Source: an uncultured Verrucomicrobiota bacterium
GTDB taxonomy: Bacteria; Verrucomicrobiota; Kiritimatiellia; RFP12; UBA3636
Direction of reading: 5' to 3'
Assembly (NCBI GenBank): GCA_949285835.1
Contig: CASEAR010000050.1
Location: 1-36,638, forward strand
Length of the DNA stretch: 36,638 nt
The notes beneath the pieces are model-generated. The model was not told the origin of the DNA and did not search any database. It worked only from the letters and a program-made list of their open reading frames with translations. Below are positions 338 through 24,351 of the stretch, piece by piece. Position 1 is the stretch's first letter. Each line of letters begins with the position of its first letter. Position numbers and translations under genes: made by a program.

Positions 338-366
338 TTGATTTCCGATGTTATTAAGATATAATA
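338..366 (+). promoter_or_regulatory. Promoter with overlapping palindrome for the glycyl radical operon
   Basis: TTGATT (338-343) and a perfect TATAAT (360-365) are separated by 16 bases, placing transcription start near 372. The -10 overlaps an inverted repeat TATTA-agata-TAATA (352-366), a position where a bound repressor would block RNA polymerase. The regulator encoded as second gene of the operon is the natural candidate, but this is inference. The promoter lies over the ATG at 348, so it argues that translation starts at 402 instead. Confidence 0.7.
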
Positions 367-401
367 CCATAAAAAATGACCCCCGACTTAATGGAGATGT
401 T

Positions 402-2756
402 ATGAAAAGTTGCGCGGCCCTTTTCAACGATGGACTCGAACGCCTGCTCGCGGCAAAACTCCGGCAGAAACAGCTCACAGGCTGGTTCATATATCAGGAA
501 ATCAAAATGCAGGAGAGGGAAGCTATGCGCGGGGCCGGCCGGGATCCCGATGACGCACGGTACGCAGGAGAACTGCTCTGCCGCTGCGTTAAACGCATGC
601 CGCTGTCAATCCCCGAGGGAAGCGTGTTTGCCGGGACTCAGGACGACTCCTTTTCGCCAAGCTATGCGCTTATAAACCCGAGTTTCCGCGTGGAATCCTT
701 CTCCGGGTATTGCGACCCGGTCGCAATATACGCGGATATCGAGCCTTCGGACGAAATCCCGGCGGACAGAATCGAAAAAGTGAAGAACTACTGCCGTGAA
801 ACCCCGTACGGCAGAAGACTCGCCGGGATTTACAAAATCACGGAGAACCTGACCTCCGAGGCAGTCTTTTTCATGGAACCCGTCACCGGACACATGATCC
901 CTGATATGCGCCCCATTCTCAGGGACGGCCTGACGGCCTTCACGGCGCAGGCGGCATCCGGCGGCCCGTTCACCGCCACCATGCGGGATGCCGCGCAGGC
1001 GGCCGCAATCCTAGCGGAACGCTACGCCCGGCTCGCGGAACAGCTTGCCGCGGAACGCAGCGGAATCCCCGGAGAAACGGAACGCCTCACGCTGATCGCC
1101 CGCAGCTGCCGCCGCGTTCCCATGCAGAAAGCCGGAACTCTCCACGAAGCGATGCAGTCCTACCTGCTGCTGTGGCAGCTTATGTGCCTCGAACAGGCTC
1201 CCAACCCATACGCTTTTTCCGCCGGGAACCTCGACCGGGTGTTCGAACCGTACCGCAAAGAGACTGATTTCGAAACCGCCGTGGCGCTCACCCGCCATAT
1301 GCTCGCCTTTTACATGGTCGGCGCGCGCGGCTGGGCAATTTCACAAAATCTGCTTCTGGGCGGACGCGATGCCGCCGGGAAAGACCTCAGCTGCGTCATG
1401 ACGGATGTAATTTTCGAGGCGTTCATCCGCTCCAACCAGCCCCAGCCTGCCCTTTCCGTAAAAATTCACAGCGGCACTCCGGACAGTATCTTCCGCACAA
1501 TGGGAAAAATGTACTTCACGCCGGGTCACTCGACGCCGTCGCTTTTCAACGACGACATGATGTTCCGCGTCCTGAAATCCAAGGGTATTTCCGAAGAGGA
1601 CATACCGGACTGGGCTGTGGCCGGATGCCAGGAACCGCTCATCATGGGCAGGGAAAACGGCAATACCACCAACAGCTGGCTGAACCTCGGCAAGGTGCTG
1701 GAACTCACGCTCAACGACGGCTGCTCCCTGCTAACCGGACGTAAAATCGGACTGTCCGCCGCCGAGCTCGGCTTCGACTCCACCGGCGCGGCGTACCGAG
1801 ACCTTGAAACCGCGTTTTTCCGGCAGCTTGACTTCGTCCTGCCGCAAATGGAAGCCGCGGTCAACCGCTGCACGCGCGCCATCGGGAGCTGGGCAACCCC
1901 ATTCGGCTCCCTGCTGTTCGGCGGACTCGAAAGCGGCCGCGATATGCGCGACCCCGACCACCCGGGAACCCGCTACTGCGCAAGCGGATGCCTAATTCAC
2001 GGCCTCAGCGTCGCCGCAGATTCCATTACCGCCGTAAAGCACTTCCTCGCGGAAAATCCGGACGGCGCAGAGTCCCTGCGCGCCGCCCTCCAGGCCGGCT
2101 TCAAAGACCGCCCGGCCCTGCGGGCCCGCCTTCTCGCCTATCCAAAATATGGCTGCGCACTGCCCGAACCGGACGAAACCGCAGCCCGCATCGCCGCCCG
2201 TGTCAGCAGCAAAGTATACGCTCTGCGCAATCCCGCCGGACGCCCCTTCCAGCCGGACTTCTCCACCCCCAGCACACACCTGCTGTACGGTTACTGGGTC
2301 GGAGCGACGCCCGACGGTCGCCTCCCACGGACAATGCTCGGATACGGAGTCGACCCGCGCCCGGAGATCTCCGGAGGAGAGTTGACCGATCAGCTCCTCT
2401 CCGAACGCGGGTTGCCGTTCCTCGCTATGACCGGCGGCTGCGCCTCGCACATAGGCCTCTCTCCTGCTTCATTCTCAGACCGGGAAGACCCGGAGGAAAA
2501 AGGCCTTGCCATGCGCGACCGCATAATCCGGCCGCTTTTCTCCGCCGGTCCGCGGTCCGGAGAGGCCCCATACTACGTCTACTTCAACATCGACAGCGCA
2601 AAACATCTGCGCAAAATTCTCTCCGATCCCGCCAAATACGTGCCCTCCGGCATCTACATTATGAGAATCCACGGGACTTTCGTGAACTTCCTCGACCTCT
2701 CCCCCGCCATCCAAGAAGACATCATCCGCCGCCTTGAGCGGAGCGAATGCGCATGA
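402..2756 (+). CDS. Glycyl radical enzyme, pyruvate formate-lyase superfamily, substrate unknown
   Basis: This 784-residue protein has the two hallmarks of a glycyl radical enzyme. A thiyl-forming cysteine sits in GCQEPLIMG (Cys409), in the style of dehydratase or lyase members rather than the Cys-Cys pair of true pyruvate formate-lyase. The radical glycine is in RIHGTFVNF (Gly758), 26 residues from the end. The ATG at 402 is chosen because GGAG lies 8 bases upstream and because a longer start at 348 falls inside the promoter. The gene is followed with overlap by a regulator, the activating enzyme and a sugar kinase, so the enzyme probably cleaves or dehydrates a small polyol, sugar or sugar derivative. 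No microcompartment shell genes or aldehyde dehydrogenase are nearby, unlike the choline or propanediol systems. The class is secure; the substrate is not known. Confidence 0.92.
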   Translation: MKSCAALFNDGLERLLAAKLRQKQLTGWFIYQEIKMQEREAMRGAGRDPDDARYAGELLCRCVKRMPLSIPEGSVFAGTQDDSFSPSYALINPSFRVESFSGYCDPVAIYADIEPSDEIPADRIEKVKNYCRETPYGRRLAGIYKITENLTSEAVFFMEPVTGHMIPDMRPILRDGLTAFTAQAASGGPFTATMRDAAQAAAILAERYARLAEQLAAERSGIPGETERLTLIARSCRRVPMQKAGTLHEAMQSYLLLWQLMCLEQAPNPYAFSAGNLDRVFEPYRKETDFETAVALTRHMLAFYMVGARGWAISQNLLLGGRDAAGKDLSCVMTDVIFEAFIRSNQPQPALSVKIHSGTPDSIFRTMGKMYFTPGHSTPSLFNDDMMFRVLKSKGISEEDIPDWAVAGCQEPLIMGRENGNTTNSWLNLGKVLELTLNDGCSLLTGRKIGLSAAELGFDSTGAAYRDLETAFFRQLDFVLPQMEAAVNRCTRAIGSWATPFGSLLFGGLESGRDMRDPDHPGTRYCASGCLIHGLSVAADSITAVKHFLAENPDGAESLRAALQAGFKDRPALRARLLAYPKYGCALPEPDETAARIAARVSSKVYALRNPAGRPFQPDFSTPSTHLLYGYWVGATPDGRLPRTMLGYGVDPRPEISGGELTDQLLSERGLPFLAMTGGCASHIGLSPASFSDREDPEEKGLAMRDRIIRPLFSAGPRSGEAPYYVYFNIDSAKHLRKILSDPAKYVPSGIYIMRIHGTFVNFLDLSPAIQEDIIRRLERSECA

Positions 2757-3775
2757 GAAATTTGACCGAACAGGTTCGAGCGGCCCTCGCCGAAGAAATA
2801 CTCGCCGGTAAATATTCCCCCGGAGACCGGCTCCCTTCCGAACGGGAATACGCCGCCAGCACCGGCGCCAGCCGAGTCACCGTGCGCCGCGCTTATGCGC
2901 AGCTCGAAGCCGCCGGCATCATCGCTCGAAGCCGCCCCACGGGAACCCGCGTCGCCGATACCTTCCGCGCCCACTCCGGCGTCCTCGAAAACGTGGGCCT
3001 TATAACCACCATGCCGCATGAGTTCTCAGGACGCTTCGTGGAAGCCGTCAGCCGCTGCTGCCGCGAACTCGACGCCCTCCTCGTCCTCGGCATCCCGGAA
3101 CCGGATACGGGCGGCGAACAGCTCAAAATCGCCATGCGGATGGCCACGCGCGGCGTCAAAGACCTCATCGTCTGGGGCGCGGATCGCGGTTTCGACTTCC
3201 GCGTGTTCGAACGGCTCCGCATCCTCGGCGTCAATCTCGTTTTCTTCGATCAGATCCTGCCCGGAAACTTCGCGGACTATGTCGGACTCGACAACCGCTC
3301 CGCCATACGCACCCTCATGAAACGCGCGCGCTCCAGAGGCGCCGAAAACATGTTCTTTGTCAACTGCTCCGGACTCGACGTCGACACAAACGCCGAACGC
3401 GAGGAAGCCTTCCGGGAATTCATCGCCGAAACCGGCTGCCGCGGCGAAGTCAGGACTCTTCCACGGAACACCTCCCCCGCGGAACTCCGAAGACTGGCGC
3501 AAGAACTGGACGCCATGTCTGAAAAAGTCCCGTCCGCAGTAATCGGCGTGAACGCACCCGTGCTGCAGTCGCTCTTCCGAACTCCTCCGGTTCACGCACA
3601 ACTCTGCTGCGTCGATCACACCCCCGCCGTCGCCGCACTCGGCGCCGCCGCAATCAGGCAACCCATCGGCTCCATGGCGGAAGCCGCCGTCAGCCTCCTC
3701 CGCGAACAGCGGCGCAAGGGAGAAAAATGGCGGGCCGTGGTCCAGCGCTTCCCAGGGGAGCTTGTCGAACCATGA
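2753..3775 (+). CDS. GntR-type winged helix regulator with LacI-like sugar-binding domain
   Basis: The first 70 residues form a GntR winged helix (LTEQV...GDRLPSERE...VTVRRAYAQLEAAGII). The rest, to residue 340, is a periplasmic-binding-protein-like effector domain of the LacI/AraR kind (for example IVWGADRGFDFRVFERL and DYVGLDNRSA). Such GntR/LacI hybrids are normally sugar-responsive repressors. The start at 2753 overlaps the stop of the enzyme gene as ATGA and has GGAG 9 bases upstream; an ATG at 2747 is possible but its spacing is poor. Being the second gene of the operon suggests autoregulation, possibly through the palindrome at 352-366. The effector is unknown, though a sugar or sugar phosphate linked to the kinase is the simplest idea. 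Confidence 0.88.
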   Translation: MRNLTEQVRAALAEEILAGKYSPGDRLPSEREYAASTGASRVTVRRAYAQLEAAGIIARSRPTGTRVADTFRAHSGVLENVGLITTMPHEFSGRFVEAVSRCCRELDALLVLGIPEPDTGGEQLKIAMRMATRGVKDLIVWGADRGFDFRVFERLRILGVNLVFFDQILPGNFADYVGLDNRSAIRTLMKRARSRGAENMFFVNCSGLDVDTNAEREEAFREFIAETGCRGEVRTLPRNTSPAELRRLAQELDAMSEKVPSAVIGVNAPVLQSLFRTPPVHAQLCCVDHTPAVAALGAAAIRQPIGSMAEAAVSLLREQRRKGEKWRAVVQRFPGELVEP

Positions 3776-4668
3776 GACTGTTTGCACAAGGCTGGAGCGA
3801 CCGCCGGGACGGCCCCGGACACCGCCGCATCTACTACCTCAAGGGGTGCAATCTGCACTGCCGGTGGTGCGCCTCCCCTGAAAGCATAGCCGCCGAACCG
3901 GAACTGCTGTTCTACCCTGAACGCGTCGCCGGAGAACCGCTCGATTTCCTTTGCCCGCACGGAGCCGTCAGAGACGGCCGCCTCGACCGCCGTATCTGCG
4001 GAGGCTGCAGCGCACACGAATGCGCCCGGGTTCGCCACCCCGCATTGGAATGGGCCGGGTTTGAGCGCACGCCCGGCGAGCTCGAACAGGAAATCCTGCG
4101 CCTGTCGTCCGGATGGAGCGATTTCGGCGGAGTAACGTTTGGCGGCGGAGAGCCCACCCTGCAGGCGGACGAACTTCTCGACTGTCTCGCCCGGCTCCGA
4201 CGACACGGGATTCACACGGCTTTCGAAAGCAACGCCTCCACCCCGCGCTTCCCTGCCGCCACACGCTCGGCCTCCCTCGCAATCGCGGATTTAAAGGCCG
4301 GAACGCCGGAATGTTTCAGAAAATGCACCGGAGGCAACCTCGACACCGTGCTCGAACACCTGACTGAGGCGGCCCGAAGCGCACCGGACCTCCTCGTCCG
4401 GGTGCCGGTCATCACAGGCATGAACGACTCCGAATCCGAATTGGAGCAGATCGCCGTTCACCTCGCCTCCCTGCACCGCCTCCGCATGTCCTGCGCGGAA
4501 CAGCCGCTTGCCGTGGAAATACTGAAGCTTCACCATTTCGGAGAACCCAAATATCAAGCCCTCGGCCGGAAATATGAGCTCACGGGACGCCCTCCCCCGG
4601 ACACGCGGAAACTCGAACGCTTCGAGCACACACTCTCTTCCGCCGGAATTGCACTGCAAAGGAACTGA
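3772..4668 (+). CDS. Glycyl radical enzyme activating enzyme (radical SAM)
   Basis: This 298-residue protein would generate the glycyl radical on the enzyme encoded at 402-2756 using S-adenosylmethionine. The radical SAM cluster motif is KGCNLHCRWC (Cys26, Cys30, Cys33) and the SAM-binding GGE motif is TFGGGEPTL (about residues 122-130). Between them lies an insert with only four cysteines in a cluster-like arrangement (Cys61, Cys76, Cys79, Cys84), whereas many activases of dehydratase-type enzymes carry eight for two auxiliary 4Fe-4S clusters. The start overlaps the regulator stop as ATGA, which implies translational coupling. An upstream frame extension to 3727 lies inside the regulator gene and is not used. 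The partner is inferred from adjacency. Confidence 0.92.
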   Translation: MRLFAQGWSDRRDGPGHRRIYYLKGCNLHCRWCASPESIAAEPELLFYPERVAGEPLDFLCPHGAVRDGRLDRRICGGCSAHECARVRHPALEWAGFERTPGELEQEILRLSSGWSDFGGVTFGGGEPTLQADELLDCLARLRRHGIHTAFESNASTPRFPAATRSASLAIADLKAGTPECFRKCTGGNLDTVLEHLTEAARSAPDLLVRVPVITGMNDSESELEQIAVHLASLHRLRMSCAEQPLAVEILKLHHFGEPKYQALGRKYELTGRPPPDTRKLERFEHTLSSAGIALQRN

Positions 4669-6410: not shown

Positions 6411-6588
6411 AGGTGGATGCGCATGCGGCGCGGGAACTCTCCGGGAGGTGAGTTTCTTTGCGAGGATCGGGCGTCTGGAGGTGGATGCGCGCGCAGTGCG
6501 GAAACTCTCCGATGCAGACGCGGGATACGTCGGGCATACGTACGTGCCTGACGGCGAATGCGCAGCGCGGGAACTCTCCGATGCAGGT
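6411..6588. repeat. Three-copy repeat of about 36 bases at 68-73 base period
   Basis: Copies lie at 6412-6448, 6480-6517 and 6553-6587. Each has a GGTGGATGCGC-like left part and a right part GCGGGAACTCTCCG; copies two and three continue with ATGCAG. The third copy ends only a few bases before the start codon of the radical SAM gene at 6594, so the repeats make up its leader. On the minus strand the repeats encode CIGEFPRCA/CIGEFPHCA-type peptides, but I see no credible gene. The role may be a regulatory leader or a mobile repeat; both are speculative. Confidence 0.6.
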
Positions 6589-6593
6589 AGTAT

Positions 6594-7496
6594 ATGAAGC
6601 TGACAACCTTTTTGAATTTGGCCGCCTTTGGCGTAAAAACCATTCTTTTCAAAAAGAACTCGCCAATTCTGGGAACCGTAATCGTTACCGACAAATGCAA
6701 TTTGAAATGCAGACACTGTTCAGTAAACAACATTACGGCGATTGTGCATCCATACCGGCAAATCAAAAACGAGATGCAGATGCTTTACGGCATGGGAGTG
6801 CGCATTTTATTTTTTTGCGGCGGCGAAACCTTTCTGTGGAGAGACGGACAGCTCACCATTCGGGATCTTGTCATAGAAGCAAAAAAAACCGGCTTCCTGA
6901 TTGTTAATGTCGTCACCAACGGCACTTTCCCTCTGGATTTGCCGGAGGCAGATCTCATTTTACTGAGCCTTGATGGAGACCGGGAACGGCACAACGCTGT
7001 CCGCGGCGACACCTACGACACCATCATGGAAAATATCAAGAACGCCGCTTCGGACAATATTTGCTTCTATATGGCAATTAACCAGATCAACAAAAATGCG
7101 GTCAGGGAGGTTTGTATTGCTGCACGCGAGACACAAAATGTACGCGCCGTGTCTTTCAATTTTCATACGCCTTACCCGGACACAAGGGCGCTGGCTCTTT
7201 CCAAAGAGGAAAAAAAAGACTGCTGCACCGTAATTTCAAGCATGATGAAACAGGGAGCTCCTGTATTTAATCTCCGGAGCGCTTTCCCGTATCTGATTAA
7301 CAACAGTTTCCCCACCCCATGCCATCAGTGCGTGGTTGTGGAAAACGGGAAGCTGTCAACATGCGGACGCTGCATCGAGGTGCCGGGGCTTTGCGGCGAA
7401 TGCGGCTATTTCTTCGTCGCGGAGTACACCCTTTTATTCCGAGGCAGCCTGAAAATAATCATCGATATGCTCAAAACTTATCTGAAGTACATTTAG
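6594..7496 (+). CDS. Radical SAM protein with Cys-rich C-terminal region
   Basis: This 300-residue protein carries the radical SAM motif CNLKCRHC (Cys35, Cys39, Cys42), a GGE motif in FFCGGETFLW (about residues 73-82), VVTNGTFPL and LSLDGDRERH, all typical of the MoaA/SkfB/PqqE-like branch. The C-terminal part has at least six cysteines in the order CHQC...CGRC...CGEC (about residues 242-267), as expected for SPASM-like auxiliary iron-sulfur binding. It ends in a hydrophobic-amphipathic tail that may associate with membrane or partner. The start has only a weak AGGT ribosome site 7 bases upstream and directly follows the three-copy repeat. GC content is clearly lower than that of the upstream operon. 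It is probably cotranscribed with the next radical SAM gene, 7 bases away. The substrate is unknown; peptide or cofactor modification is possible. Confidence 0.85.
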   Translation: MKLTTFLNLAAFGVKTILFKKNSPILGTVIVTDKCNLKCRHCSVNNITAIVHPYRQIKNEMQMLYGMGVRILFFCGGETFLWRDGQLTIRDLVIEAKKTGFLIVNVVTNGTFPLDLPEADLILLSLDGDRERHNAVRGDTYDTIMENIKNAASDNICFYMAINQINKNAVREVCIAARETQNVRAVSFNFHTPYPDTRALALSKEEKKDCCTVISSMMKQGAPVFNLRSAFPYLINNSFPTPCHQCVVVENGKLSTCGRCIEVPGLCGECGYFFVAEYTLLFRGSLKIIIDMLKTYLKYI

Positions 7497-7503
7497 TGGA
7501 AAT

Positions 7504-8757
7504 ATGAGTACAGCGACAAAATTAACCAGAATGTGGCTGACCCGTTCAGTCAGGCCGTTCGTTTTTACGAATGAATACGACCAGAGGCTTCCGTTTTCAG
7601 ACTGCAGCAATCTGGGACTGTATGTGCATATTCCGTTCTGTGAAAACATATGCAGCTTTTGCCCATATTGCAAGGTCAGATACGCAAAGGAGTCATGCGA
7701 TAAATACATAGACGCGCTGATTCAGGAAATCCACCTTGCAGGTAAGCAGCACTTCGGTAAAAAAACGGCTACAAGCCTGTATTTTGGAGGCGGCACGCCG
7801 GCTCTTGCAGCAGACCGCTTGAAGGACATTATTGGCGCCGTCAACGACCATTTTGTCATTACCGAGGGCATAGGGGTGGAGCTGCATCCCGACAATGTCA
7901 AACCGGATGTTTTGCAGATATTGAAAGACGCAGGAGTGACGAAGCTCAGCATCGGAGTTCAGTCGTTTCAGGAAAAATATCAGCGCATTCTGGGGAGAAC
8001 ATGCGTGAACGCCGCCGCGTTAAAAGAGGCTCTTGCGGAAGAGCCCTTTGAGACTGTATCCATGGATTTTATCTTCGCCCTGCCATCGCAGACATTCGAC
8101 GATTTGAAAACGGATATCGATGCCGCATTCCGGCATGGTGCGAATCACGTGGCTATCTACCCGTTTATTGACTTTACTTTTACCGACAGCCGCCTTCACG
8201 CAATGCCCAAAAAGGAAAAACGCGCCCTACTGGACAAAATTGCCTCGTACTGCACGCAGCAGGGATATGTCCGCAGTTCTATCTGGACTTTTTCAACCGT
8301 GGAAAATGTGAAGTATTCGTCTATGACTAGAGATAATTATCTGGGGTTCGGCTGCTCCGCAGCAACGCTTTTGAAGGACCGGTTCAAAATTAACACGTTC
8401 TCTGTCGAACACTACTGCCGCAGAATTTATGAAAGGAAGCTCCCGACTTCGCTGACGACACATTTCTCCCTGCGCCAGCGCATGGTATACTATTTGTTCT
8501 GGACTGCATACAGCACAAAGGTAAGTGCAGCGGATTTTGAAAAGTTTTTCGGCGCATCATTAAAGAAAATGTATGGCATGGAGATAAGGATCGCAAAGCT
8601 TTTAGGCTTCATTAACGAGGAAAACGGCGAATGCCGCCTGACGCCTAAAGGTGCATTTTACTTCCACTACTATGAAAGCTTTTATACGCTCGCCTATATC
8701 GACAAAATGTGGAACATCATGCGTAAGGAAGCTTTCCCGGAACGTATCGAACTTTGA
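7504..8757 (+). CDS. HemN/HemW-like radical SAM protein (coproporphyrinogen oxidase-like)
   Basis: The 417-residue protein shows the class C/HemN architecture: YVHIPFCENICSFC (Cys46, Cys50, Cys53, with Cys56 beyond), LYFGGGTPAL, ELHPDN, TKLSIGVQSFQ, MDFIFALPSQT and a C-terminal HemN-like helical domain with LTPKGAFYFHYY. Relatives include oxygen-independent coproporphyrinogen dehydrogenase, the heme chaperone HemW, and the heme-opening methylase ChuW/HutW. HemN has a CX3CX2CXC pattern, and here the fourth Cys is one residue further along, so I do not call it HemN. It follows the other radical SAM gene by 7 bases, and the two likely act in one pathway. No other heme or porphyrin gene is in the window. 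Confidence is high in the family and low in the reaction. Confidence 0.87.
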   Translation: MSTATKLTRMWLTRSVRPFVFTNEYDQRLPFSDCSNLGLYVHIPFCENICSFCPYCKVRYAKESCDKYIDALIQEIHLAGKQHFGKKTATSLYFGGGTPALAADRLKDIIGAVNDHFVITEGIGVELHPDNVKPDVLQILKDAGVTKLSIGVQSFQEKYQRILGRTCVNAAALKEALAEEPFETVSMDFIFALPSQTFDDLKTDIDAAFRHGANHVAIYPFIDFTFTDSRLHAMPKKEKRALLDKIASYCTQQGYVRSSIWTFSTVENVKYSSMTRDNYLGFGCSAATLLKDRFKINTFSVEHYCRRIYERKLPTSLTTHFSLRQRMVYYLFWTAYSTKVSAADFEKFFGASLKKMYGMEIRIAKLLGFINEENGECRLTPKGAFYFHYYESFYTLAYIDKMWNIMRKEAFPERIEL

Positions 8758-9129
8758 ATAAAGGGAGAATGCCATGGCAGGCGCCCCACCCTGTATGCCC
8801 GCCAGGCGTTTTTTGACCATGGAGACGAACCCTACCGAATCAAACAATATGACTCCGCCAGACGCGTACATCATGCGCGCACATCTTCGCAGCCGTTACA
8901 TTTTTCCCCAATTTATCCGAAAAGCGCTTCCCGTCAGACTCTGTGCCATGGCCCTGCAGTCCGGTGCCGGTTCCGGACTGCGGGCCGCGCCGCATTCCCC
9001 GGAGAACGCCGCGCCTACGGCGGATTCGTCCCCATCCGCACCATTACGGCTTCACGCAGTATCGGAGACGCCGCCCCACATACGAACGCCAAAATAAACA
9101 TCCCTGTTGAAATAATTAAATTGATTTAG
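8758..9129 (+). pseudogene. Decayed segment containing a frameshifted relic of an FGGY kinase gene
   Basis: From about 8910 to 9050 this DNA aligns with positions 5608-5742 of the upstream kinase gene. The best 104 columns (8945-9047 against 5639-5742) are about 82 % identical by hand count, with one base missing after CGCCGCATT. Before that point the relic reads ALQSGAGSGL in the 8774 frame, and after it reads GERRAYGGFVPIRTIT in the 8773 frame, matching MALQSDAASNL and GERHAPGEFGSIRGIT of the kinase. An ATG at 8774 has a well spaced AAGGGAG and opens a frame to 9097, but its end is only the frameshifted kinase segment. The first 130 bases may be the start of a lost third operon gene joined to the relic. 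No intact product is supported. Confidence 0.75.
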
Positions 9130-9135
9130 CATAAT
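9107..9135 (+). promoter_or_regulatory. Sigma-70-type promoter for the Cys-rich small protein
   Basis: TTGAAA (9107-9112) and CATAAT (9130-9135) are separated by exactly 17 bases in a very AT-rich stretch. The predicted start of transcription is near 9142, inside the palindrome described separately. This gives the small protein and probably the methyltransferase a promoter independent of the radical SAM genes. Confidence 0.72.
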
Positions 9136-9142
9136 ATATACA

Positions 9143-9160
9143 AATCAAATTTATTTGATT
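9143..9160. promoter_or_regulatory. Perfect palindrome at the transcription start, candidate operator
   Basis: AATCAAAT-tt-ATTTGATT is an 8-base perfect inverted repeat placed from about +1 to +19 relative to the promoter at 9107-9135. That position suits a repressor binding site. No matching regulator gene is nearby, so its ligand is unknown. Confidence 0.55.
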
Positions 9161-9214
9161 GGGTTACACATTTATAAATTAAACAGTAAATGACATCTTA
9201 AAAAAACACAAGGA

Positions 9215-9703
9215 GTGATTGCTATACATGCAGTTGAATTTCCTGTAACAGTTTGTCTCGGAGGTGGAGACGGCGGTGAAATTTGCGTAAAGATGGAGAT
9301 TACCGACGAAGAATACGAGTTGCTCAAACAGTGCTGCAGAGACGGCTGCGACATAGAATCTTGTCCCGAACTTGAAGACCTTTGCAACCGCATCACCGAG
9401 GAATCCGGTGACGAGACGGAAAGGTGCATGGACGAATGCGACTCCGACAAGGATATCGACTGCGACTCCACTTACTACATTATCGAGATGCCGGAAGAAA
9501 TAGAAGACCTTATCTTAGCCGAAGAAGAAGCCGAAGCAGAGAGGGAAGAGGCCGAAGAAATGCGAGAGCAGGAACGAAAGGAAAAAGAGGAACGGGAGAA
9601 AAAAGAACAAGCAAAGAAAGAAAAGGCCGCTGGCAAGAAAGCAACAACAGAAAAAAAACAAAGAAAGGCGAATAGCTGGCAGTTCCTTGTCCTGCCACAT
9701 TGA
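9215..9703 (+). CDS. Cys-rich acidic small protein with charged Lys/Glu-rich tail, function unknown
   Basis: The frame encodes up to 162 residues. The first half has ten cysteines (positions 14, 24, 40, 41, 45, 50, 57, 71, 75, 83) in an acidic context with EITDEEYELLKQCC. The second half (about 100-150) is an uninterrupted Glu/Lys/Arg helix of coiled-coil character. I do not recognise the family. The start is unclear. AAGGAG (9210-9215) overlaps the GTG at 9215 and cannot serve it; the best-spaced in-frame codon is ATA at 9224, while the nearby ATG at 9228 is out of frame and opens only a six-codon peptide; the first in-frame ATG is at 9293. It has its own promoter and operator-like palindrome and precedes a methyltransferase gene. 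It might be a metal-binding protein or a substrate of the neighbouring radical SAM enzymes, but this is conjecture. Confidence 0.6.
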   Translation: MIAIHAVEFPVTVCLGGGDGGEICVKMEITDEEYELLKQCCRDGCDIESCPELEDLCNRITEESGDETERCMDECDSDKDIDCDSTYYIIEMPEEIEDLILAEEEAEAEREEAEEMREQERKEKEEREKKEQAKKEKAAGKKATTEKKQRKANSWQFLVLPH

Positions 9704-9792
9704 ATGATGTGCGGGAATGGACGTGCTGAACTAAGAGAAACTCTCGGACGTGCTGAAAGACGGCAGCAGCCGCAAAAGAATATGGACGAAAA

Positions 9793-10551
9793 ATGAATAT
9801 TGAATGGGACGCCGGTAAATATACGAAAGACTTTTCTTTTGTCCACCAATACGGCAACGACGCTGCGGAGCTGATTGACTGCAAAGCAGGAGGCGCGGTT
9901 CTTGATCTCGGCTGCGGGAACGGATCCCTTACAAACCGACTGAAAAACAAGGGATTCCACGTCATTGGCATCGATGACTCAGAGGACTTGCTGAACGTTG
10001 CCCGCAGCAATTACCCCGATATAAACTTCATCAAAGCGGACGCCGCAGCTTTTACGCTCAATAAACCCGTGGATGCGGTTTTTTCAAATGCGGTATTTCA
10101 TTGGATAGACAAGGACAAACAGCCGTCTATGCTTTCCTGCGTATACAACGCGCTCAAAGACAATGGTCAATTCGTTTTTGAATTTGGAGGCCATGGAAAC
10201 AACGCCCTTATTCATGGAGAATTGGAGAAGGCGTTCCTGAAATATGGGTATTACTACAAAATGCCTTTTTACTTCCCAACAATCGGAGAATATGCTTCGC
10301 TGGTTGAACAGGCGGGCTTTCAAGTCAGATATGCTGTATTATTCGTCAGGCCGACAGAGCTGAAGGGAGAACAGGGACTCAAAGATTGGATTGATATGTT
10401 TGTAAAAACCCCATTCCTGGCCGTCGCAAGCCCCGAAGACGCAGAAAGCATCAAAACCATGGCTGTTAGAAATCTGAAGCATGTTTTGTATAAAAACGGC
10501 AAATGGTACGCCGATTACGTAAGAATACGAATGAAAGCATACAAGGACTGA
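9793..10551 (+). CDS. Class I SAM-dependent methyltransferase, trans-aconitate methyltransferase-like
   Basis: The 252-residue protein has the Rossmann methyltransferase motif I VLDLGCGNGSL (residues 36-46), motif II VIGIDDSEDLL, FIKADAAAF and FSNAVFHWIDK, the last being characteristic of Tam-like small-molecule methyltransferases. It would use S-adenosylmethionine on a small acid, lipid or peptide; no substrate can be read from the sequence. The start is preceded by a weak GGAC site. An 89-base gap separates it from the Cys-rich protein, and the repeated string GGACGTGCTGAA occurs twice in that gap. It is the last gene on this strand before a bidirectional terminator. Its low GC matches the radical SAM island. 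Confidence 0.85.
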   Translation: MNIEWDAGKYTKDFSFVHQYGNDAAELIDCKAGGAVLDLGCGNGSLTNRLKNKGFHVIGIDDSEDLLNVARSNYPDINFIKADAAAFTLNKPVDAVFSNAVFHWIDKDKQPSMLSCVYNALKDNGQFVFEFGGHGNNALIHGELEKAFLKYGYYYKMPFYFPTIGEYASLVEQAGFQVRYAVLFVRPTELKGEQGLKDWIDMFVKTPFLAVASPEDAESIKTMAVRNLKHVLYKNGKWYADYVRIRMKAYKD

Positions 10552-10780: not shown

Positions 10781-11269
10781 CTATTCAGATTTTAACTGGG
10801 AAACCCAGGCGCTGATTCGCTCGTCTGTAAGCTCAGGCTGATTGTTTTCATCCAGAGCCAAACCGCAAAAGCTTCCGTTGTCCTCGGCAGTCGATGCAGA
10901 AAAGTTGTATCCTTCGGCAGAAGTTCTTCCTATAAGTTTTGCACCGCATTTGGACACAGCTTCCGCCAGAGTCGCCATTGCATTGCAATAAGTGTCGGAA
11001 AAAGCAGACTGATCTCCTTCTCCGAAGATCGCGGCTTTCACTCCGCTCAAATCTGCTCCTTCCAATTTCGCGATATTGCTTTCCCAATCATCCTGCAGAT
11101 CTCCAAATCCCCATGTTGAAACCCCCAGAATAAGAAGATCAGCTTTAAAATCTTCCTGAGAAGCAGATGCTATCGCTATAGGTTTAACGCCGAAAGCCGC
11201 CGCTATTTTTTCGGCAGCACTTTCCGTATTTCCCGTAGTACTTCCATATATAACGCTTACTTTGTCCAT
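10781..11269 (-). CDS. Flavodoxin
   Basis: This 162-residue protein is a typical short-to-medium flavodoxin, an FMN electron carrier that can replace ferredoxin. The phosphate-binding loop is YGSTTGNTE (about residues 8-16), followed by LGVSTWGFGDLQDDW with the aromatic residue that stacks on the flavin, and FGEGDQSAFSDTYCNA around the second flavin loop. The ATG at 11269 has AAAGGA ten bases upstream; longer frames to 11350 lie in the upstream gene. It follows the DUF3793 gene by 25 bases and shares its iron-box promoter, so it is probably made under iron limitation, when ferredoxin is scarce. An anaerobe-type FldA is the closest functional name. Confidence 0.93.
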   Translation of the reverse strand: MDKVSVIYGSTTGNTESAAEKIAAAFGVKPIAIASASQEDFKADLLILGVSTWGFGDLQDDWESNIAKLEGADLSGVKAAIFGEGDQSAFSDTYCNAMATLAEAVSKCGAKLIGRTSAEGYNFSASTAEDNGSFCGLALDENNQPELTDERISAWVSQLKSE

Positions 11270-11294
11270 TTTTATGAGTCCTTTTGTTATTTCG

Positions 11295-11888
11295 TTAGAC
11301 ACTTGGAAAAACCTGTAGTCCAGAATATTTATCGAAAACCGCAGCCGCATGAAGTTCCGCCCTGCGATAGATATTCATGCAGCGAACTGATTCGCTCGGG
11401 TCACCATAAACACGCCACCTGCCGCGATGAACAAAAACCGGTTCCTGATTTTCAATAAATCCTCTGACGTCTTTTATCGGATAACCTACGAATATACCGA
11501 CTTCATGAGGGAACTCAACGGACAGAAACCTCCTGCTCAGATGTTCAATATCCGCATCCAGATCATGTGCTGCCGGATAACCATGCCTGAAAAGCAATTC
11601 CCGGTGTTCTGGAACAGAGAGGACTGCCGCCAACCTCTCGGGCCGGAAGAAAAGGAAAAGAGAACTGTCGGCCTCCGAATAAAGTTCAACATTATCAAGA
11701 CTTATTGTCTTCAAAATTTCTGCCTTTTTCAGGCAGCAGCAACACCCTCCGGAATTACACACTTTGTAATGTCGCCTTACCCGCAAAAGTTCCGCAGGCT
11801 TCACCCCAAAGCGCACAGCAGCCGTTTTTAAAAAGAAAAAACGCTTTGGATCCCCGCAGCAGCAATCGTATTTCTGTTTTTCCTCCAT
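11295..11888 (-). CDS. DUF3793 family protein
   Basis: The 197-residue protein matches the DUF3793 pattern known from anaerobes: a mid region PHEVGIFVGYPIKDVRGFI, then WRVYGDPSE and a C-terminal FDKYSG. In many anaerobes this family is encoded next to flavodoxin, as here, but no biochemical role is established. The N-terminal half has unusual Cys clusters (CCCGDP and CNSGGCCCCLKKAE), which could bind metal. The start at 11888 has GGAG about 10 bases upstream. It is the first gene of a two-gene minus-strand operon and lies directly behind an iron-box-like sequence, which suggests a function in iron-limited growth. Confidence 0.85.
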   Translation of the reverse strand: MEEKQKYDCCCGDPKRFFFLKTAAVRFGVKPAELLRVRRHYKVCNSGGCCCCLKKAEILKTISLDNVELYSEADSSLFLFFRPERLAAVLSVPEHRELLFRHGYPAAHDLDADIEHLSRRFLSVEFPHEVGIFVGYPIKDVRGFIENQEPVFVHRGRWRVYGDPSESVRCMNIYRRAELHAAAVFDKYSGLQVFPSV

Positions 11889-13882: not shown

Positions 13883-15085
13883 TCACTTGGACAGATCGTA
13901 CACCTTTTCTAGAGGAAAAATATGGGCAAGCTTATCTCCTGTCGTCCTGAATAGATATCCATGATCTCTTACGCCACCATTGGGTTTTATATGCATTGCA
14001 TAGTCGAGTGTAATGATTCCGGAATCAAATAAGCTTGCGAGATTTGCCGTATTCGGTTTTCTCGTGTGCCGTACGTAGTCGTACCTGAAGAATTCCTTGC
14101 CGTCAACAACCTCGCTTGAAGCTTGCACCCAAAATGTTTCACGATGCTTTTCTGCAAGTCTTGCCTTTAGCGTTTTAAGCGCCCAAACAGCAACACCTCC
14201 AGAATACTTTTCTGTCTTCGCTTTGTTGATCAAATCAACCTCATCATGAGCATCAAGATAGAGTCCTTGCGAATTAACTAAATTTGACACCGTACAATAC
14301 AACTGCAGGCGACCGTCTTCAATATAACCAAAAGTTGAGAGGATATCGGAGGCAGTAAACTGACTTCGTTTCCAGTCTGGAATATTAGCAAATAGCGTTA
14401 TTTTCTTTGTTCTTGAAATCTTCGAAACCGCTTTCCCCAACTTTCTGGATGATTTAAGTTCAATTCCTTTGTAATCAGGGGTTTTATCCGCATTTGGCTT
14501 GATTCCAAGCAAATCCTCTAACGTCATTCCAACATTTGTATCACCATGCTTTACACCAGAAATAAAACCCTTTTTATGAATCTGTTTCAACTTACATAAC
14601 AACTCGCTTGCCACTGGTGAAATTACTTCTGCACACGCTGAAAGAATTTCATGTGGATACGATCCTGGCACGCCAAATGCCCGAACGACATCCTTGTTGC
14701 TCATATTAAAGACATACAACTCACCGTCATACGCAACGACAGCAAGCAAATCCGTCGGCCTACAATATTGTGTTAGTTGGTAAAACCAAACACGTGGATC
14801 TCCATCTTGTTTGGGTTTAGCTTTCGGTCGATAAAAAGACGCTTTTGTTTTGATGCAAGAATCCGGCAAGACAAAATTAGCGGAGACATACTCCTTTACT
14901 CCACGAGTCTGCATCGAATAATCATGGACACCTGTTTCGCGCAAAAAATCGCGAAACGATAGCGTTGCATCTATTATCGACTTGCTAAGACCTGTACGCG
15001 TAGGAACCAATAAGCCCGTTGAAATTCCCGATCCATTAAACAAGCGAAGCGCTTCTTCAATTGACGTATTAGACACCTTAAGCAT
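13883..15085 (-). CDS. Type II restriction endonuclease, MvaI/BcnI family
   Basis: The 400-residue protein contains the MvaI/BcnI signature GDTNVGMTLEDLLGI (residues 181-195) followed by the catalytic PD-(D/E)XK core PDYKGIELK (Asp204, Glu209, Lys211). Known family members cut CC(W)GG or CC(S)GG and are about 240 residues long; here about 180 additional N-terminal residues form a separate domain that may add specificity or control. The start at 15085 overlaps the methyltransferase stop (15078-15080) by 8 bases and has GGAGGAG 5 bases upstream, so the two are translationally coupled with the methyltransferase first. The upstream frame extension to 15253 lies in the methyltransferase gene and is rejected. 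The AT-rich composition points to horizontal transfer. The recognition sequence cannot be read from the protein. Confidence 0.88.
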   Translation of the reverse strand: MLKVSNTSIEEALRLFNGSGISTGLLVPTRTGLSKSIIDATLSFRDFLRETGVHDYSMQTRGVKEYVSANFVLPDSCIKTKASFYRPKAKPKQDGDPRVWFYQLTQYCRPTDLLAVVAYDGELYVFNMSNKDVVRAFGVPGSYPHEILSACAEVISPVASELLCKLKQIHKKGFISGVKHGDTNVGMTLEDLLGIKPNADKTPDYKGIELKSSRKLGKAVSKISRTKKITLFANIPDWKRSQFTASDILSTFGYIEDGRLQLYCTVSNLVNSQGLYLDAHDEVDLINKAKTEKYSGGVAVWALKTLKARLAEKHRETFWVQASSEVVDGKEFFRYDYVRHTRKPNTANLASLFDSGIITLDYAMHIKPNGGVRDHGYLFRTTGDKLAHIFPLEKVYDLSK

Positions 15086-16940
15086 TACACTCCTCCAATA
15101 ATTTAACGAAGTTTCTACCGATATTGTAGGCAAGCTCCACAGGTACGGCATTACCAATTTGCGTATACTTCGGCAGTTCTCGATCAAAAATACCCTCACG
15201 TGGATTTCCAGCACGACGAAGCCCACCAGTAGTCCTCTTACCTGCAAATACATACCAGTCAGGGAAGGTCTGCAAGCGAGCCCACTCGCGAACTGTTAAA
15301 GACCTTGGTTGGCAAAAATGAACGTAGTCATCCGGTGCTGAACAAGCCGTAATTGACGGACCATCTTTACCCCAAACACGAGGCAAGACCTTCTGAGCAA
15401 ACTTTTTCGTGCGAAATCTATCAGGTATCACCCCTCCATTACGAATCATCTCCGTGAACTTCTCGACTATTAGGTCTGAATGGTTACTATACTCCATTTC
15501 AGACACTTCATCTCCCGCTGCGAAGATTGTTCCATCTCGCTTAGTGCGAAGTCGCAGCTGAAAACCATTCTGTGGCGAGCACGGGTAAGTTCGTGTCACC
15601 GAACCACGCTGATAATCCGGATCTACCAAATCACCAAGCAACTCCTCTATAGTTGGGTAACCTCCCACAGGCTTCGGAAGGAAACCTGCCATTACCGCAT
15701 CATCACCCTTTACAACCGGCGCAGGGAATATATCACGACGAAGACCAACGATGAGAATACGCGGACGATTTTGAGGGACTCCGTAATCCTTTGCATGAAC
15801 AAGTTTATACCGAACATAATAGGCACCAATGTTACGAAACGTTTTCAATACATCTTTGAAAATCTCACCTTTCTCTCCATCATCTGTCCAGCGCGCAGAA
15901 AGCAACCCTCTAACGTTCTCGAACAAAAAAATCTTAGGTCGAATTCGGTTTACAAGGAATGCCATGTCTTGATAAAGGTAATTAGATGGTAGCTGTTTCT
16001 TTTCGACAGAATAAGATCGCCGAATTCCAAGTCCCGAAAAGCCCTGACAAGGTGGCCCACCACAAATCAAATCAAGTTCGCCATTATATATATCAATATC
16101 AAAATTCCTAAGGATGGTCGCACGAAAACCATCAAGCATGTTTTCGTTAAGAACAAGATCCTTGACGTTAGAGACATTGTTATCACATAGCCAAGGGAAT
16201 TCATCCCTACGATTCAATAGATACGTGCTCATCGCATCAGAATTAAGCTCATTCACAAGCAACGGAGTAAATCCAGCACGCTCAAGTCCGAGAGACAATC
16301 CTCCACAACCAGCGAAAAGATCAAAAAACGTAAATTTTGGGCGCGTGATTTTAGTTTTGGGTGTAGTAGGTTTAAGAAGTTTCGCCGTGAAATCTGTCTG
16401 CACAGCCTCACACACACGCAACACCTTTGGCGAAATCTTCGTCAACAGTGGAGGCAAACAATTCGCAAGTATCGGATCTTTGTAATCTGGCGAAGTAAGA
16501 TATGTTCTGAGCTTCTTTAGCACGAATTTTGACGTTGCGAAATCTTGTAGCCGAACAATAACCTTTTCCGCTAATCCAGAAGCCGGATTGTATAGTCTTG
16601 TTTTGCTCGTTGAGTAGAGGATATAGGTGCCCGTGCCATGCGGCTTGCCTGTTGCTGGATAACCATATTCAGCTTTCAGCTCGTCCCTTGTTTTAAACCC
16701 AATAAATTTTGCCCTAAGACAAACCGGATCCTTTTTCGCATTAAATAGCCAGATTTCGTTGACCTGCTTTGCAACTTCGAGATCAATATCGTCACCATCA
16801 TAAATCGGATAGTTGTAATATTCAGACCATTTCTCCAGCTGCCCCGATTTATACGTGCCGACAAGAACAATCTTCTTGTCATTTGTCGCAAGCCTTCCGG
16901 TCGTGTTTCCATATTCTTTTGGGGTTAACAGCCTTGCCAT
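15078..16940 (-). CDS. DNA (cytosine-5) methyltransferase with extra N-terminal domain
   Basis: The 620-residue protein has all main C5-methyltransferase motifs: FAGCGGLSLGLE (motif I, from residue 209), GGPPCQGFSG with the catalytic Cys298 (IV), FLFENVRGLL (VI, Glu341), QNRPRIL (VIII, from Gln390) and IGNAVPVELA near the end (X). It protects DNA from the coupled nuclease. The first about 200 residues precede the catalytic domain and contain NEIWLFNAKKDPVCLRAKFIG, possibly a PUA/EVE-like fold; I could not name it. The ATG at 16940 is preceded by GGAAGG with 5-base spacing; the earlier TTG at 16952 overlaps that site. The gene is first in a two-gene operon, as expected when protection must come before cutting. 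GC content is much lower than the flanks. Confidence 0.93.
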   Translation of the reverse strand: MARLLTPKEYGNTTGRLATNDKKIVLVGTYKSGQLEKWSEYYNYPIYDGDDIDLEVAKQVNEIWLFNAKKDPVCLRAKFIGFKTRDELKAEYGYPATGKPHGTGTYILYSTSKTRLYNPASGLAEKVIVRLQDFATSKFVLKKLRTYLTSPDYKDPILANCLPPLLTKISPKVLRVCEAVQTDFTAKLLKPTTPKTKITRPKFTFFDLFAGCGGLSLGLERAGFTPLLVNELNSDAMSTYLLNRRDEFPWLCDNNVSNVKDLVLNENMLDGFRATILRNFDIDIYNGELDLICGGPPCQGFSGLGIRRSYSVEKKQLPSNYLYQDMAFLVNRIRPKIFLFENVRGLLSARWTDDGEKGEIFKDVLKTFRNIGAYYVRYKLVHAKDYGVPQNRPRILIVGLRRDIFPAPVVKGDDAVMAGFLPKPVGGYPTIEELLGDLVDPDYQRGSVTRTYPCSPQNGFQLRLRTKRDGTIFAAGDEVSEMEYSNHSDLIVEKFTEMIRNGGVIPDRFRTKKFAQKVLPRVWGKDGPSITACSAPDDYVHFCQPRSLTVREWARLQTFPDWYVFAGKRTTGGLRRAGNPREGIFDRELPKYTQIGNAVPVELAYNIGRNFVKLLEECNA

Positions 16941-17328
16941 TTTACCTTCCAATCTAAATCAATATAAGTTCTCAACTGCATAGCAACCCGATAAAAATCA
17001 TCCCCGTAATTCGATTTTTTTCACCTGATTGTGAAACAAACTAAAACTGAACCACCCAAACATCTCCGCTCATCAACTTGAACAAAAGGTTCTCTTGGAT
17101 TCTTGCTAAACAAAAACCCTGAGTCAGATTGTATCGGATTTTTGTAAACAATGAAACAATTTAGTCGTTAAAATCTTTTAGCAAAGTTGCAGAATGTAAC
17201 GTCCGATTGCAGACATGAAAAGAAACGCCCCGGAGATGCGCATTCCCGCCGTGCGGGCAGATCATTTCCGGAAAACAGTGATGTTTCGCTTTCTGCTAAT
17301 AAAGGCAATCCACGCCGGGAAAAACATC
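16941..17328. other. AT-rich leader of the restriction-modification operon and spacer
   Basis: No gene is supported. On the minus strand, TTCATT and TACAAT (complement at 17128-17133) are 16 bases apart and could be a promoter about 190 bases upstream of the methyltransferase. The palindrome at 17019-17036 lies between this promoter and the gene. I did not find a C-protein (controller) gene. Confidence 0.4.
17019..17036. promoter_or_regulatory. Inverted repeat TTTCAC-n6-GTGAAA, candidate operator of the RM operon
   Basis: The two 6-base arms (17019-17024 and 17031-17036) are perfect and lie about 80 bases upstream of the methyltransferase start. Control of RM genes by their own methyltransferase or by a C protein often uses such sites. 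No controller gene is visible, so autoregulation by the long N-terminal domain of the methyltransferase is one possibility. Confidence 0.45.
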
Positions 17329-22603: not shown

Positions 22604-23050
22604 TCACATTCCGCTGAAGATTTCGCCGTCCAAATCTATTATACTGTCGAAGCCTATCTCCGAGCCGTCTTCCATAACAATCAGCCGGCGGAAGGCGTCC
22701 ACACGTTCAACGCGCCCTTCCGTTACTTCAAAAGAACCGCCATCTTTCAGTGGATCCGGTACAAAATGCGTTACCCTGATCTCCGGATGTTCGTGCATTC
22801 TGCGCACGAGTTCGCCGGCTTTCAGATTGAGTTCTTCCAGCAGGCCGTCGCAGGGAGCCGGTTCCTCGTCCGTATGCCGGCAGACCTCGCGTATCATATC
22901 GCCGTACCCCGACAATGCCGCAAAAGGCAGGAACTGCACAGCCCGTCTCGAACGCGGCATTTGCGGCCTTACAGGAGACACGTGATGCGGCAGCCCGATA
23001 ATGTCGTCATATGCGCCTGCATTGCGGCGTATTTTATTCCTGTCCGGCAT
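22604..23050 (-). CDS. YolD-like family protein
   Basis: The 148-residue protein contains the YolD pattern PRSRRAVQFLPFAALSGYGDMIRE (split motif at about residues 32-55), followed by an acidic helix and a beta-rich end VTHFVPDPLKDGGSF and EIGFDSIIDLDGEIF. In Firmicutes such proteins are often encoded next to Y-family DNA polymerases and linked to SOS mutagenesis, but their biochemical role is unclear. No polymerase is in the window. The start codon overlaps the biotin ligase stop as TGATG, so translation is coupled, an unexpected partner for this family. The end of the gene is supported by the conserved final strand. Confidence 0.75.
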   Translation of the reverse strand: MPDRNKIRRNAGAYDDIIGLPHHVSPVRPQMPRSRRAVQFLPFAALSGYGDMIREVCRHTDEEPAPCDGLLEELNLKAGELVRRMHEHPEIRVTHFVPDPLKDGGSFEVTEGRVERVDAFRRLIVMEDGSEIGFDSIIDLDGEIFSGM

Positions 23051-24351
23051 CAGGCGCCTTCTTTCGGAACGAGGCTCATATAAAGAATCGGGAACGGCCT
23101 GCCATCCCCATCTGTCTCTGTGCGCCTGCGCACACGGAACCCCATGTGTTCATAAAATCCGACCGCCTGAGGATTCTGTTCATTTACGGTTGTCTCTGTT
23201 ACGGAGAAGTTTTTCAGCGCATACTCCACAAACAGCCGTCCAAGCCCCCTGCCCCGCATCTCCGGGGAAATAAACAGCATTTCCAGAGAGTTGCCGGAAA
23301 GTCCCATAAACCCTGCGGGAGCCCCGTCATCAGTACGAAACGCCGCCACGAGATGCGGCACTTTGCTTATCGCGGAGGGCACCTCTGCACGGATTTCGGA
23401 AATGTCTGTTTCTCCCAGAAACAAATGAGTGGCTCTGACAGAGCGCTCCCACACGTCCGTGAGCATGCCGGCAAGAGAAGCGCTCCTGTCCGACACCTCT
23501 GCAAGGCGCACTTCCGGCGGCGGCGGTTTCCCGGAGGCCGCTATTTCGGAAAACATACGGCGGGCGTAAGTTCTCTCCGGACTGCAGACAACGGAACCGG
23601 AGATTATTTCCTTTATTCCGCCGTTTTGCATTTCAACAAGAAGCATCCCTGTTTCGTCGATACCACGGCAGATTCCGGAGATCGCTCCGCTGTCCTGCGT
23701 CTGTATGCAAATATCCCGTCCGTTGAAAAAGCTGCGCCGGTTCCACTCTTCCGCAACGCGTTTCCTCCCATCCGGCAGCCGCGTTATTTCCGTCCACTTC
23801 ACCATGGACTCCGCCCACAGAGAAATCATGCGGTCAATGTCAAACAGACGTCCCCCCGACTCGACGTAAAGAGACGAAGCCGGGAACAGCGGCCTTTCCG
23901 GCAGAAATTGCGGCGGAGTGTTCACATTGACTCCTGCGCCTGCCACAACGACGCTCCCGCCCCCCGGCGCGCCGATATCCGCCTCACACAATATCCCGCA
24001 AACTTTGTGTCCGCCGGCCAGCACATCGTTCGGCCACTTTATGAAAGCGGGCAGGCCGGACAGCGAGGCTATCGCCTCACAGGACGCCACCCCGGCGGTT
24101 ATCGAAAAAAACGGGGTTTCCGACACAAGGGACGACGGACGCAGGATCATAGACATATAGGCCCCGCACCCCGGCGGCGACACCCAAGCCGCCCCGTTCC
24201 TGCCGCGGCCGGACGTCTGTGATTCCGCCGCGGCCACCGTAAACTCAGCCGCCCCGGAACGCGCAAGCTCAAACGCCTTGTCGTTCGTGGAAGAAACCGT
24301 GCCGTATCGAACGATACGGAAGCTTCCAGGCTGTTGTATACCGTCCGTCAC
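23050..24351 (-). CDS. birA: Biotin--protein ligase fused to a GNAT acetyltransferase
   Basis: Residues 1 to about 255 are a group I biotin protein ligase without DNA-binding domain: VSSTNDKAFELA, the biotinyl-AMP loop GRGRNGAAW (48-56), KWPNDVL (105-111) and KVCGILCEA. It attaches biotin to carboxylase carrier domains. Residues about 280-433 are a GNAT domain with acetyl-CoA loop RGRGLG (366-371), preceded by MLFISPEM, and the motif NPQAVGFYEHMGFRV. Both domains look complete and are joined by a proline-rich linker near residue 275. The only plausible start is GTG at 24351, because a stop lies two codons upstream; no ribosome site is evident. The fusion is unusual. The acetyltransferase resembles small-molecule or peptide N-acetylases such as YjaB. 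No biotin-dependent carboxylase is in the window. Confidence 0.85.
   Translation of the reverse strand: MTDGIQQPGSFRIVRYGTVSSTNDKAFELARSGAAEFTVAAAESQTSGRGRNGAAWVSPPGCGAYMSMILRPSSLVSETPFFSITAGVASCEAIASLSGLPAFIKWPNDVLAGGHKVCGILCEADIGAPGGGSVVVAGAGVNVNTPPQFLPERPLFPASSLYVESGGRLFDIDRMISLWAESMVKWTEITRLPDGRKRVAEEWNRRSFFNGRDICIQTQDSGAISGICRGIDETGMLLVEMQNGGIKEIISGSVVCSPERTYARRMFSEIAASGKPPPPEVRLAEVSDRSASLAGMLTDVWERSVRATHLFLGETDISEIRAEVPSAISKVPHLVAAFRTDDGAPAGFMGLSGNSLEMLFISPEMRGRGLGRLFVEYALKNFSVTETTVNEQNPQAVGFYEHMGFRVRRRTETDGDGRPFPILYMSLVPKEGA

Follow-up and report, generated by a model that had tools for sequence, protein, structure and literature searches.

Two adjacent radical S-adenosylmethionine (SAM) genes of an uncultured Verrucomicrobiota bacterium form a real conserved unit, and this unit is a pair, not a set of four genes. 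They were found in a window of 36,638 nucleotides (GenBank assembly GCA_949285835.1, contig CASEAR010000050.1, positions 1 to 36,638), in the locus at positions 6594-10551, and all assignments were made from the DNA sequence and computation. The first gene (6594-7496, + strand) encodes a radical SAM protein of 300 amino acids, here named rSAM1, and the second (7504-8757, + strand) encodes a HemN-like radical SAM protein of 417 amino acids. An initial annotation had joined both genes with a Cys-rich small protein and a methyltransferase in one modification pathway for a peptide or cofactor. The four genes were indeed found at the places given, all on the + strand, with a gap of 7 bases between the two radical SAM genes, and both radical SAM proteins reach the Pfam family Radical_SAM above cut-off. 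It was also correctly noted that no nameable cluster is matched: neither protein reaches any curated NCBIfam cut-off, and no curated family or published description of the pair was found in the literature searched. We tentatively propose that the pair is an autonomous cassette of two enzymes that moves horizontally among gut anaerobes, the two enzymes acting in turn on one small molecule.

A scan with rSAM1 of one genome per species (84,980 species) yielded 296 relatives, and the best 80 of these 296, showing 77-83 % identity, were analysed as close loci. The hosts of these 80 are Lachnospiraceae, Oscillospiraceae, Erysipelotrichales, Treponemataceae, Lentisphaeria and one Methanocorpusculum bin, mostly from animal gut. 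The HemN-like gene lies directly downstream of rSAM1 in all 79 close loci in which the contig continues (79/79), mostly at a distance of a few to ~30 bases. Divergent pairs (L097, L098 and L129-L135) keep the pairing, and both gene orders occur among them. The rSAM1 and HemN-like proteins of L097 share 31 and 33 % identity with those of the window, respectively. Reversed order was found in L098 (31 and 35 %) and in L129-L131 (53-58 and 33-35 %). In a mirror-tree analysis, the identity matrices of rSAM1 and the HemN-like protein gave a correlation of 0.78, while the maximum of 500 permutations was 0.49.

No third partner was detected: the 107 immediate neighbours of the pair span 140 Pfam families, none of which occurs in more than five. 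Likewise, no small precursor-like open reading frame (ORF) within 1.5 kb clusters in more than four loci, and the clusters of up to four loci represent close relatives with an identical neighbourhood. A conserved regulator was not found either; the helix-turn-helix (HTH) gene upstream of the divergent L129 and L131 pairs is not common to the close loci. Four related rumen Lachnospiraceae carry a different class-I methyltransferase 2 bp upstream of rSAM1, and L025 and L030 carry another Cys-containing protein 23-28 bp upstream, reminiscent of the U32 type by eye only. A radical SAM/class-I methyltransferase fusion, a HemN-like gene and an rSAM1 relative stand in a row in L098 (4468-8864). These neighbours look like lineage-specific additions. 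Upstream of rSAM1 in L009, L014, L017, L018, L046, L049 and L080, a palindrome of approximately TGTGTACACA was observed beside the -10 region; it may be an operator common to several copies. Truncated second copies of rSAM1 lie near the intact pair in L134 (7405-7731) and L131 (14339-14431), as signs of duplication and decay.

The distribution of the pair is patchy. Of 289 genomes from the window's phylum, 12 hold close copies, the genome of the window among them, and intact copies were found in 10 of 291 sampled genomes of the class of a Clostridia carrier. With clostridial copies the window rSAM1 shares 83 % identity, but with those from two genomes of its own family 65 %. In a tree rooted on the own-family members, in which few inner branches are strongly supported, the window sequence falls within a part rich in Bacillota, and the members of its own family lie outside this part. 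This nesting among Bacillota, together with the 65 % identity of the own-family copies and the base composition described below, indicates that the window pair was probably acquired by transfer from other gut bacteria. Bins may contain foreign contigs, but a binning error is unlikely here since higher-GC genes flank the pair on both sides of the same contig.

The rSAM1 protein has a cluster site C35xxxC39xxC42 and a GGE motif. PF04055 (Radical_SAM, 57 bits) is the only Pfam family above cut-off, and the top NCBIfam model, TIGR03961 (PTO1314), scores 42 bits, far below its cut-off of 306. Six conserved C-terminal Cys residues outside the radical SAM site (C243, C246, C257, C260, C267 and C270) would be enough for an auxiliary cluster. 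Their spacing, CX2C-X10-CX2C-X6-CX2C, is not recognised as SPASM, and no Pfam match to a SPASM domain was obtained at E 0.1, so that the description of rSAM1 as SPASM-like could not be maintained. By sequence profile, no solved structure is closer than the lipid enzyme GDGT-MAS; SkfB and viperin come next. Foldseek searches with an AlphaFold2 (AF2) model (predicted local distance difference test score, pLDDT, 85.5) gave GDGT-MAS, SkfB, SuiB and viperin as top matches. The protein also has an amphipathic C-terminal helix (moment 0.56). rSAM1 is thus an uncharacterised radical SAM enzyme distantly related to the PTO1314, HpnH, Tes, viperin and SkfB types.

The HemN-like protein has the cluster motif CxxxCxxCPYC, with Radical_SAM above and HemN_C below the Pfam threshold. 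Its best NCBIfam match is PRK08629/NF006385 (200 bits, cut-off 355), followed by HemW, STM4012 and HutW. The AF2 model (pLDDT 90.9) has HemN (1OLT) as top Foldseek match, with a template modelling (TM) score of 0.72 and ~21 % identity. Motifs and residue conservation were analysed in 65 HemN-like sequences. The HemN motifs GPRYTSYPTA and HRNFQGYTT, searched in shortened form, occur in 0 of 65, as does the HemW motif HNxxYW; the scores with the HemW model TIGR00539 (151 bits) and the HutW/ChuW model (142 bits) remain under the cut-offs of 205 and 400, respectively. Six signature motifs have been described for the MKMT enzymes MenK and MqnK (PMC10320005, Table 2). NxFxxxxY was found in 65/65 sequences, RxSxGxQxFxxxxL in 1/65 and the remaining four in 0/65. 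By these motifs the protein is not HemN, not HemW and not MenK/MqnK.

In enzymes of this fold the second SAM is held by Tyr56 (HemN) or Tyr34 (NocN) and by Tyr96 and Asp196 of NocN, while Arg171 of NocN holds the first SAM (PMC12871812). The corresponding residues Y40, Y93, D188 and R165 are invariant in all 65 sequences. The protein thus combines a HemN-like fold with the features of class C, a Tyr stacking on the adenine (Y40) and an Asp bridging both SAM molecules (D188), although Y40 and D188 are also common to HemN and cannot separate a methylase from a decarboxylase. The HemN-like enzyme likely uses dual-SAM, class-C-like chemistry.

The hosts were searched for genes of heme and quinone metabolism. 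Ferrochelatase (PF00762) was found in none of 52 carriers of the pair and in 8 of 14 controls. A UbiA prenyltransferase over cut-off was detected in 7 of 46 carriers, among them the genome of the window, versus 14 of 14 controls, and the expectation of a quinone thus fails for most carriers. MqnA/D of the futalosine pathway (PF02621) was found in none of 10 genomes tested, that of the window included. The absence of ferrochelatase argues against heme synthesis, which was rejected, as the HemN motifs are also missing; for the same reasons, membership of a known heme pathway is not supported. Similarly, the 39 carriers without UbiA over cut-off argue against menaquinone methylation in most hosts; with the failing MKMT motifs, this role was rejected for them.

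In the mechanism that we favour for the two-enzyme cassette, the HemN-like enzyme would bind two SAM molecules. A 5'-deoxyadenosyl radical would make a methylene radical from the second SAM, and this radical would attack an sp2 carbon, with methylation, cyclopropanation or a similar class C outcome. rSAM1, with its C-terminal Cys-rich site, would carry out the second radical reaction on the same molecule. The pair brings along no precursor gene, and the substrate should therefore be present in every host already; it could perhaps be a cellular compound of small size and probably lipophilic, isoprenoid-like nature that is common to all hosts. A weak lean towards a lipid or isoprenoid comes from the position of GDGT-MAS as closest solved relative and top fold match, from the amphipathic C-terminal helix of rSAM1, and from a distant relative of rSAM1 (31 % identity) in the locus L099, which resembles PTO1314 (125 bits) and HpnH (38 bits). 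At 257-5247 of L099, the gene of this PTO1314-like protein lies between one for a polyprenyl synthase and one for a TIGR04190 B12-dependent radical SAM protein, with MenA on the opposite strand; L099 is possibly an unstudied quinone or isoprenoid modification locus.

Several observations weigh against this proposal. Arg153 of NocN is replaced by Lys in the HemN-like protein, and Ser225 of NocN appears to be aligned with Ala. rSAM1 resembles lipid enzymes only weakly (TM 0.53 with GDGT-MAS), and RiPP (ribosomally synthesised and post-translationally modified peptide) maturases and viperin score about equally in the fold comparison. L099 has no HemN-like gene, and its quinone link cannot be general since most carriers are without UbiA. 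More speculatively still, the product of the cassette may be a modified lipid or isoprenoid not described so far, or a cofactor made from a universal metabolite; its hosts would be gut anaerobes most of which have neither quinones nor protoheme synthesis, and the cassette would have passed from phylum to phylum by transfer. The usual annotation of many HemN-like genes is coproporphyrinogen oxidase, while the group described here is locked to a second radical SAM gene in hosts without ferrochelatase and apparently moves between gut phyla. Knowing which product is made would set this annotation right and might uncover a modification of lipids or cofactors that is specific to the gut. As two genes without an accessory gene are involved, the proposal is directly testable by co-expression.

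Alternatively, the pair may act on tetrapyrroles, either in anaerobic heme breakdown for iron, as in ChuW/HutW, or in porphyrin salvage, with heme or chlorophyll-derived porphyrins taken up from the gut. The HutW and HemW scores of the HemN-like protein and a weak match of rSAM1 to AhbC/NirJ are in agreement with such a role, and the lack of ferrochelatase in these gut hosts would fit the use of imported heme. However, the scores are far under the curated cut-offs, the best match is PRK08629 and not HutW, and the HemN motifs are absent. Moreover, no neighbour family occurs in more than five of the 107 neighbours, so that the pair is not accompanied by genes for heme uptake. We therefore consider a role in tetrapyrrole metabolism unlikely.

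A viperin-like rSAM1 could modify RNA or a nucleotide, for instance in phage defence, which would explain both the mobility of the pair and its lack of partners. rSAM1 can be aligned with viperins (PADLOC pVip, E 5e-9), in line with the fold matches, and HTH_3 domains occur in 5 of the 107 neighbours. The viperin model nevertheless gives 31 bits against a cut-off of 180, the Cys-rich C-terminal part of rSAM1 lies outside the match, no defence family recurs among the 107 neighbours and the pair is absent from the phage, plasmid and viral collections searched. Such a function appears quite improbable. Carriage by phages or plasmids was also rejected, as these collections gave no match. The weakness of the viperin likeness, beside which only a MADS-type defence match of the window methyltransferase was obtained, led to rejection of a defence role.

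Slightly less probable again is a prenylquinone methylase system of the MenK/MqnK type in which the second radical SAM enzyme assists. PRK08629 may, as we infer from the MKMT study, include a Campylobacter protein of the MenK branch (PMC10320005), the NxFxxxxY motif is fully conserved and MenA lies beside the distant rSAM1 relative of L099. This is opposed by the strict conservation of only one of the six MKMT motifs, by the lack of UbiA over cut-off in most carriers and by the lack of MqnA/D in the 10 genomes tested.

The four-gene pathway of the initial annotation, taken as a RiPP or cofactor pathway in which two radical SAM enzymes and a methyltransferase would modify the Cys-rich protein, is very improbable and was rejected: adjacency, low GC, the occurrence of both radical SAM types in RiPP clusters and the SkfB and SuiB fold matches speak for it, but neither partner accompanies the pair elsewhere, no conserved small ORF lies nearby, and a gap of ~460 bp and a different GC content at third codon positions (GC3) set the other genes apart, so that it is refuted as a general rule. 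A RiPP assignment is not supported either, as no small ORF is conserved near the pair. Of the four families, only the two radical SAM genes co-occur; the Cys-rich protein and the window methyltransferase stand beside none of the related pairs. The Cys-rich ORF (9215-9703, + strand; 162 amino acids, acidic and Glu/Lys-rich) is present, but its GTG start is uncertain. It matches no Pfam or NCBIfam family above cut-off, and homologues were found neither in 39 relatives nor in viral contigs. The methyltransferase (9793-10551, + strand; 252 amino acids) is a class-I SAM enzyme that is Tam-like at the domain level only, in a generic Tam/BioC sense; its Tam match reaches 65 bits where the cut-off is 297. 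Another 24 genomes of this phylum contain relatives with 33-51 % identity. Matches at E 1e-30 were found in 2 of 46 pair carriers, this one included, and in the other carrier the match is on a different contig from the pair. Both genes were judged to be unrelated passengers outside the unit.

Base composition agrees only in part with the idea of a low-GC island. The GC content of 0.46-0.48 at the locus does contrast with 0.61-0.66 immediately upstream, but low GC extends beyond 10551 to ~12 kb, recurs at 13.5-17.5 kb and is uneven at third codon positions. GC3 is 0.57-0.58 for the pair, 0.52 for the methyltransferase, 0.41 for a flavodoxin gene further downstream and ~0.70 for window genes of native composition. 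Because of this variation a single four-gene island is not suggested; the differences suggest that the pair, the methyltransferase and the flavodoxin gene arrived separately. The separate promoter proposed before the Cys-rich ORF can be recognised as TTGAAA-17-CATAAT at 9107-9135 (10/12 consensus match), but the region is no richer in promoter-like sites than shuffled sequence (7 versus 5.0 ± 1.9). A consensus scan gave a weak terminator-like hairpin with T run at 8795-8809 (+ strand), ~40 bases past the HemN-like stop codon.

Other features of the window were noted around the locus. Directly 5' of rSAM1, three direct repeats of 33 nt, spaced 68-69 nt, lie at 6411-6580; they end in GGAACTCTCCG or GAAACTCTCCG, and their core is nearly absent elsewhere in the genome. 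The genes at 10781-11888 (- strand; GC3 0.41-0.44) encode a long-chain flavodoxin and a DUF3793 protein. The flavodoxin could supply electrons to the radical SAM enzymes, but is not a travelling partner of the pair. The region 348-4668 holds a glycyl-radical-enzyme-like ORF (802 amino acids) and a GntR-type regulator, and at 3727-4668 an apparent activating radical SAM enzyme is followed by an FGGY kinase, forming a second radical system upstream of the pair; the kinase was identified by Pfam and the remaining assignments there were made by eye. Also by eye, two low-GC ORFs at 13883-16952 resemble genes for a C5-cytosine methyltransferase and a restriction endonuclease, a restriction-modification-like block that was probably also acquired, and an ORF of 433 amino acids at 23050-24351 (- strand) reads as a fusion of biotin-protein ligase and GNAT acetyltransferase.

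Among known systems, the class C methylases (NosN/NocN, C10P and MenK/MqnK) and HemN share with the HemN-like protein the fold, the CxxxCxxC motif and the residues equivalent to Y40, Y93, R165 and D188. The pair differs from them in the Lys at the position of NocN Arg153, in the low identity within the HemN fold match, in the absence of a natural-product cluster around it and in the lack of a quinone in most hosts. PRK08629/NF006385, a coproporphyrinogen III oxidase family protein, aligns over nearly the full length of the HemN-like protein, which however stays under the cut-off and has rSAM1 as constant partner. PTO1314 and HpnH have the radical SAM core in common with rSAM1 and both match the distant L099 protein, whereas rSAM1 itself scores low with PTO1314 and is paired with a HemN-like enzyme. 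The C10P/C10Q cyclopropanase consists of a HemN-like radical SAM enzyme and a methyltransferase (PMC6050322). It likewise combines a HemN-like enzyme with a second enzyme, and methyltransferase neighbours do occur in a few pair loci, but in the pair described here a second radical SAM enzyme takes the place of the methyltransferase as constant partner.

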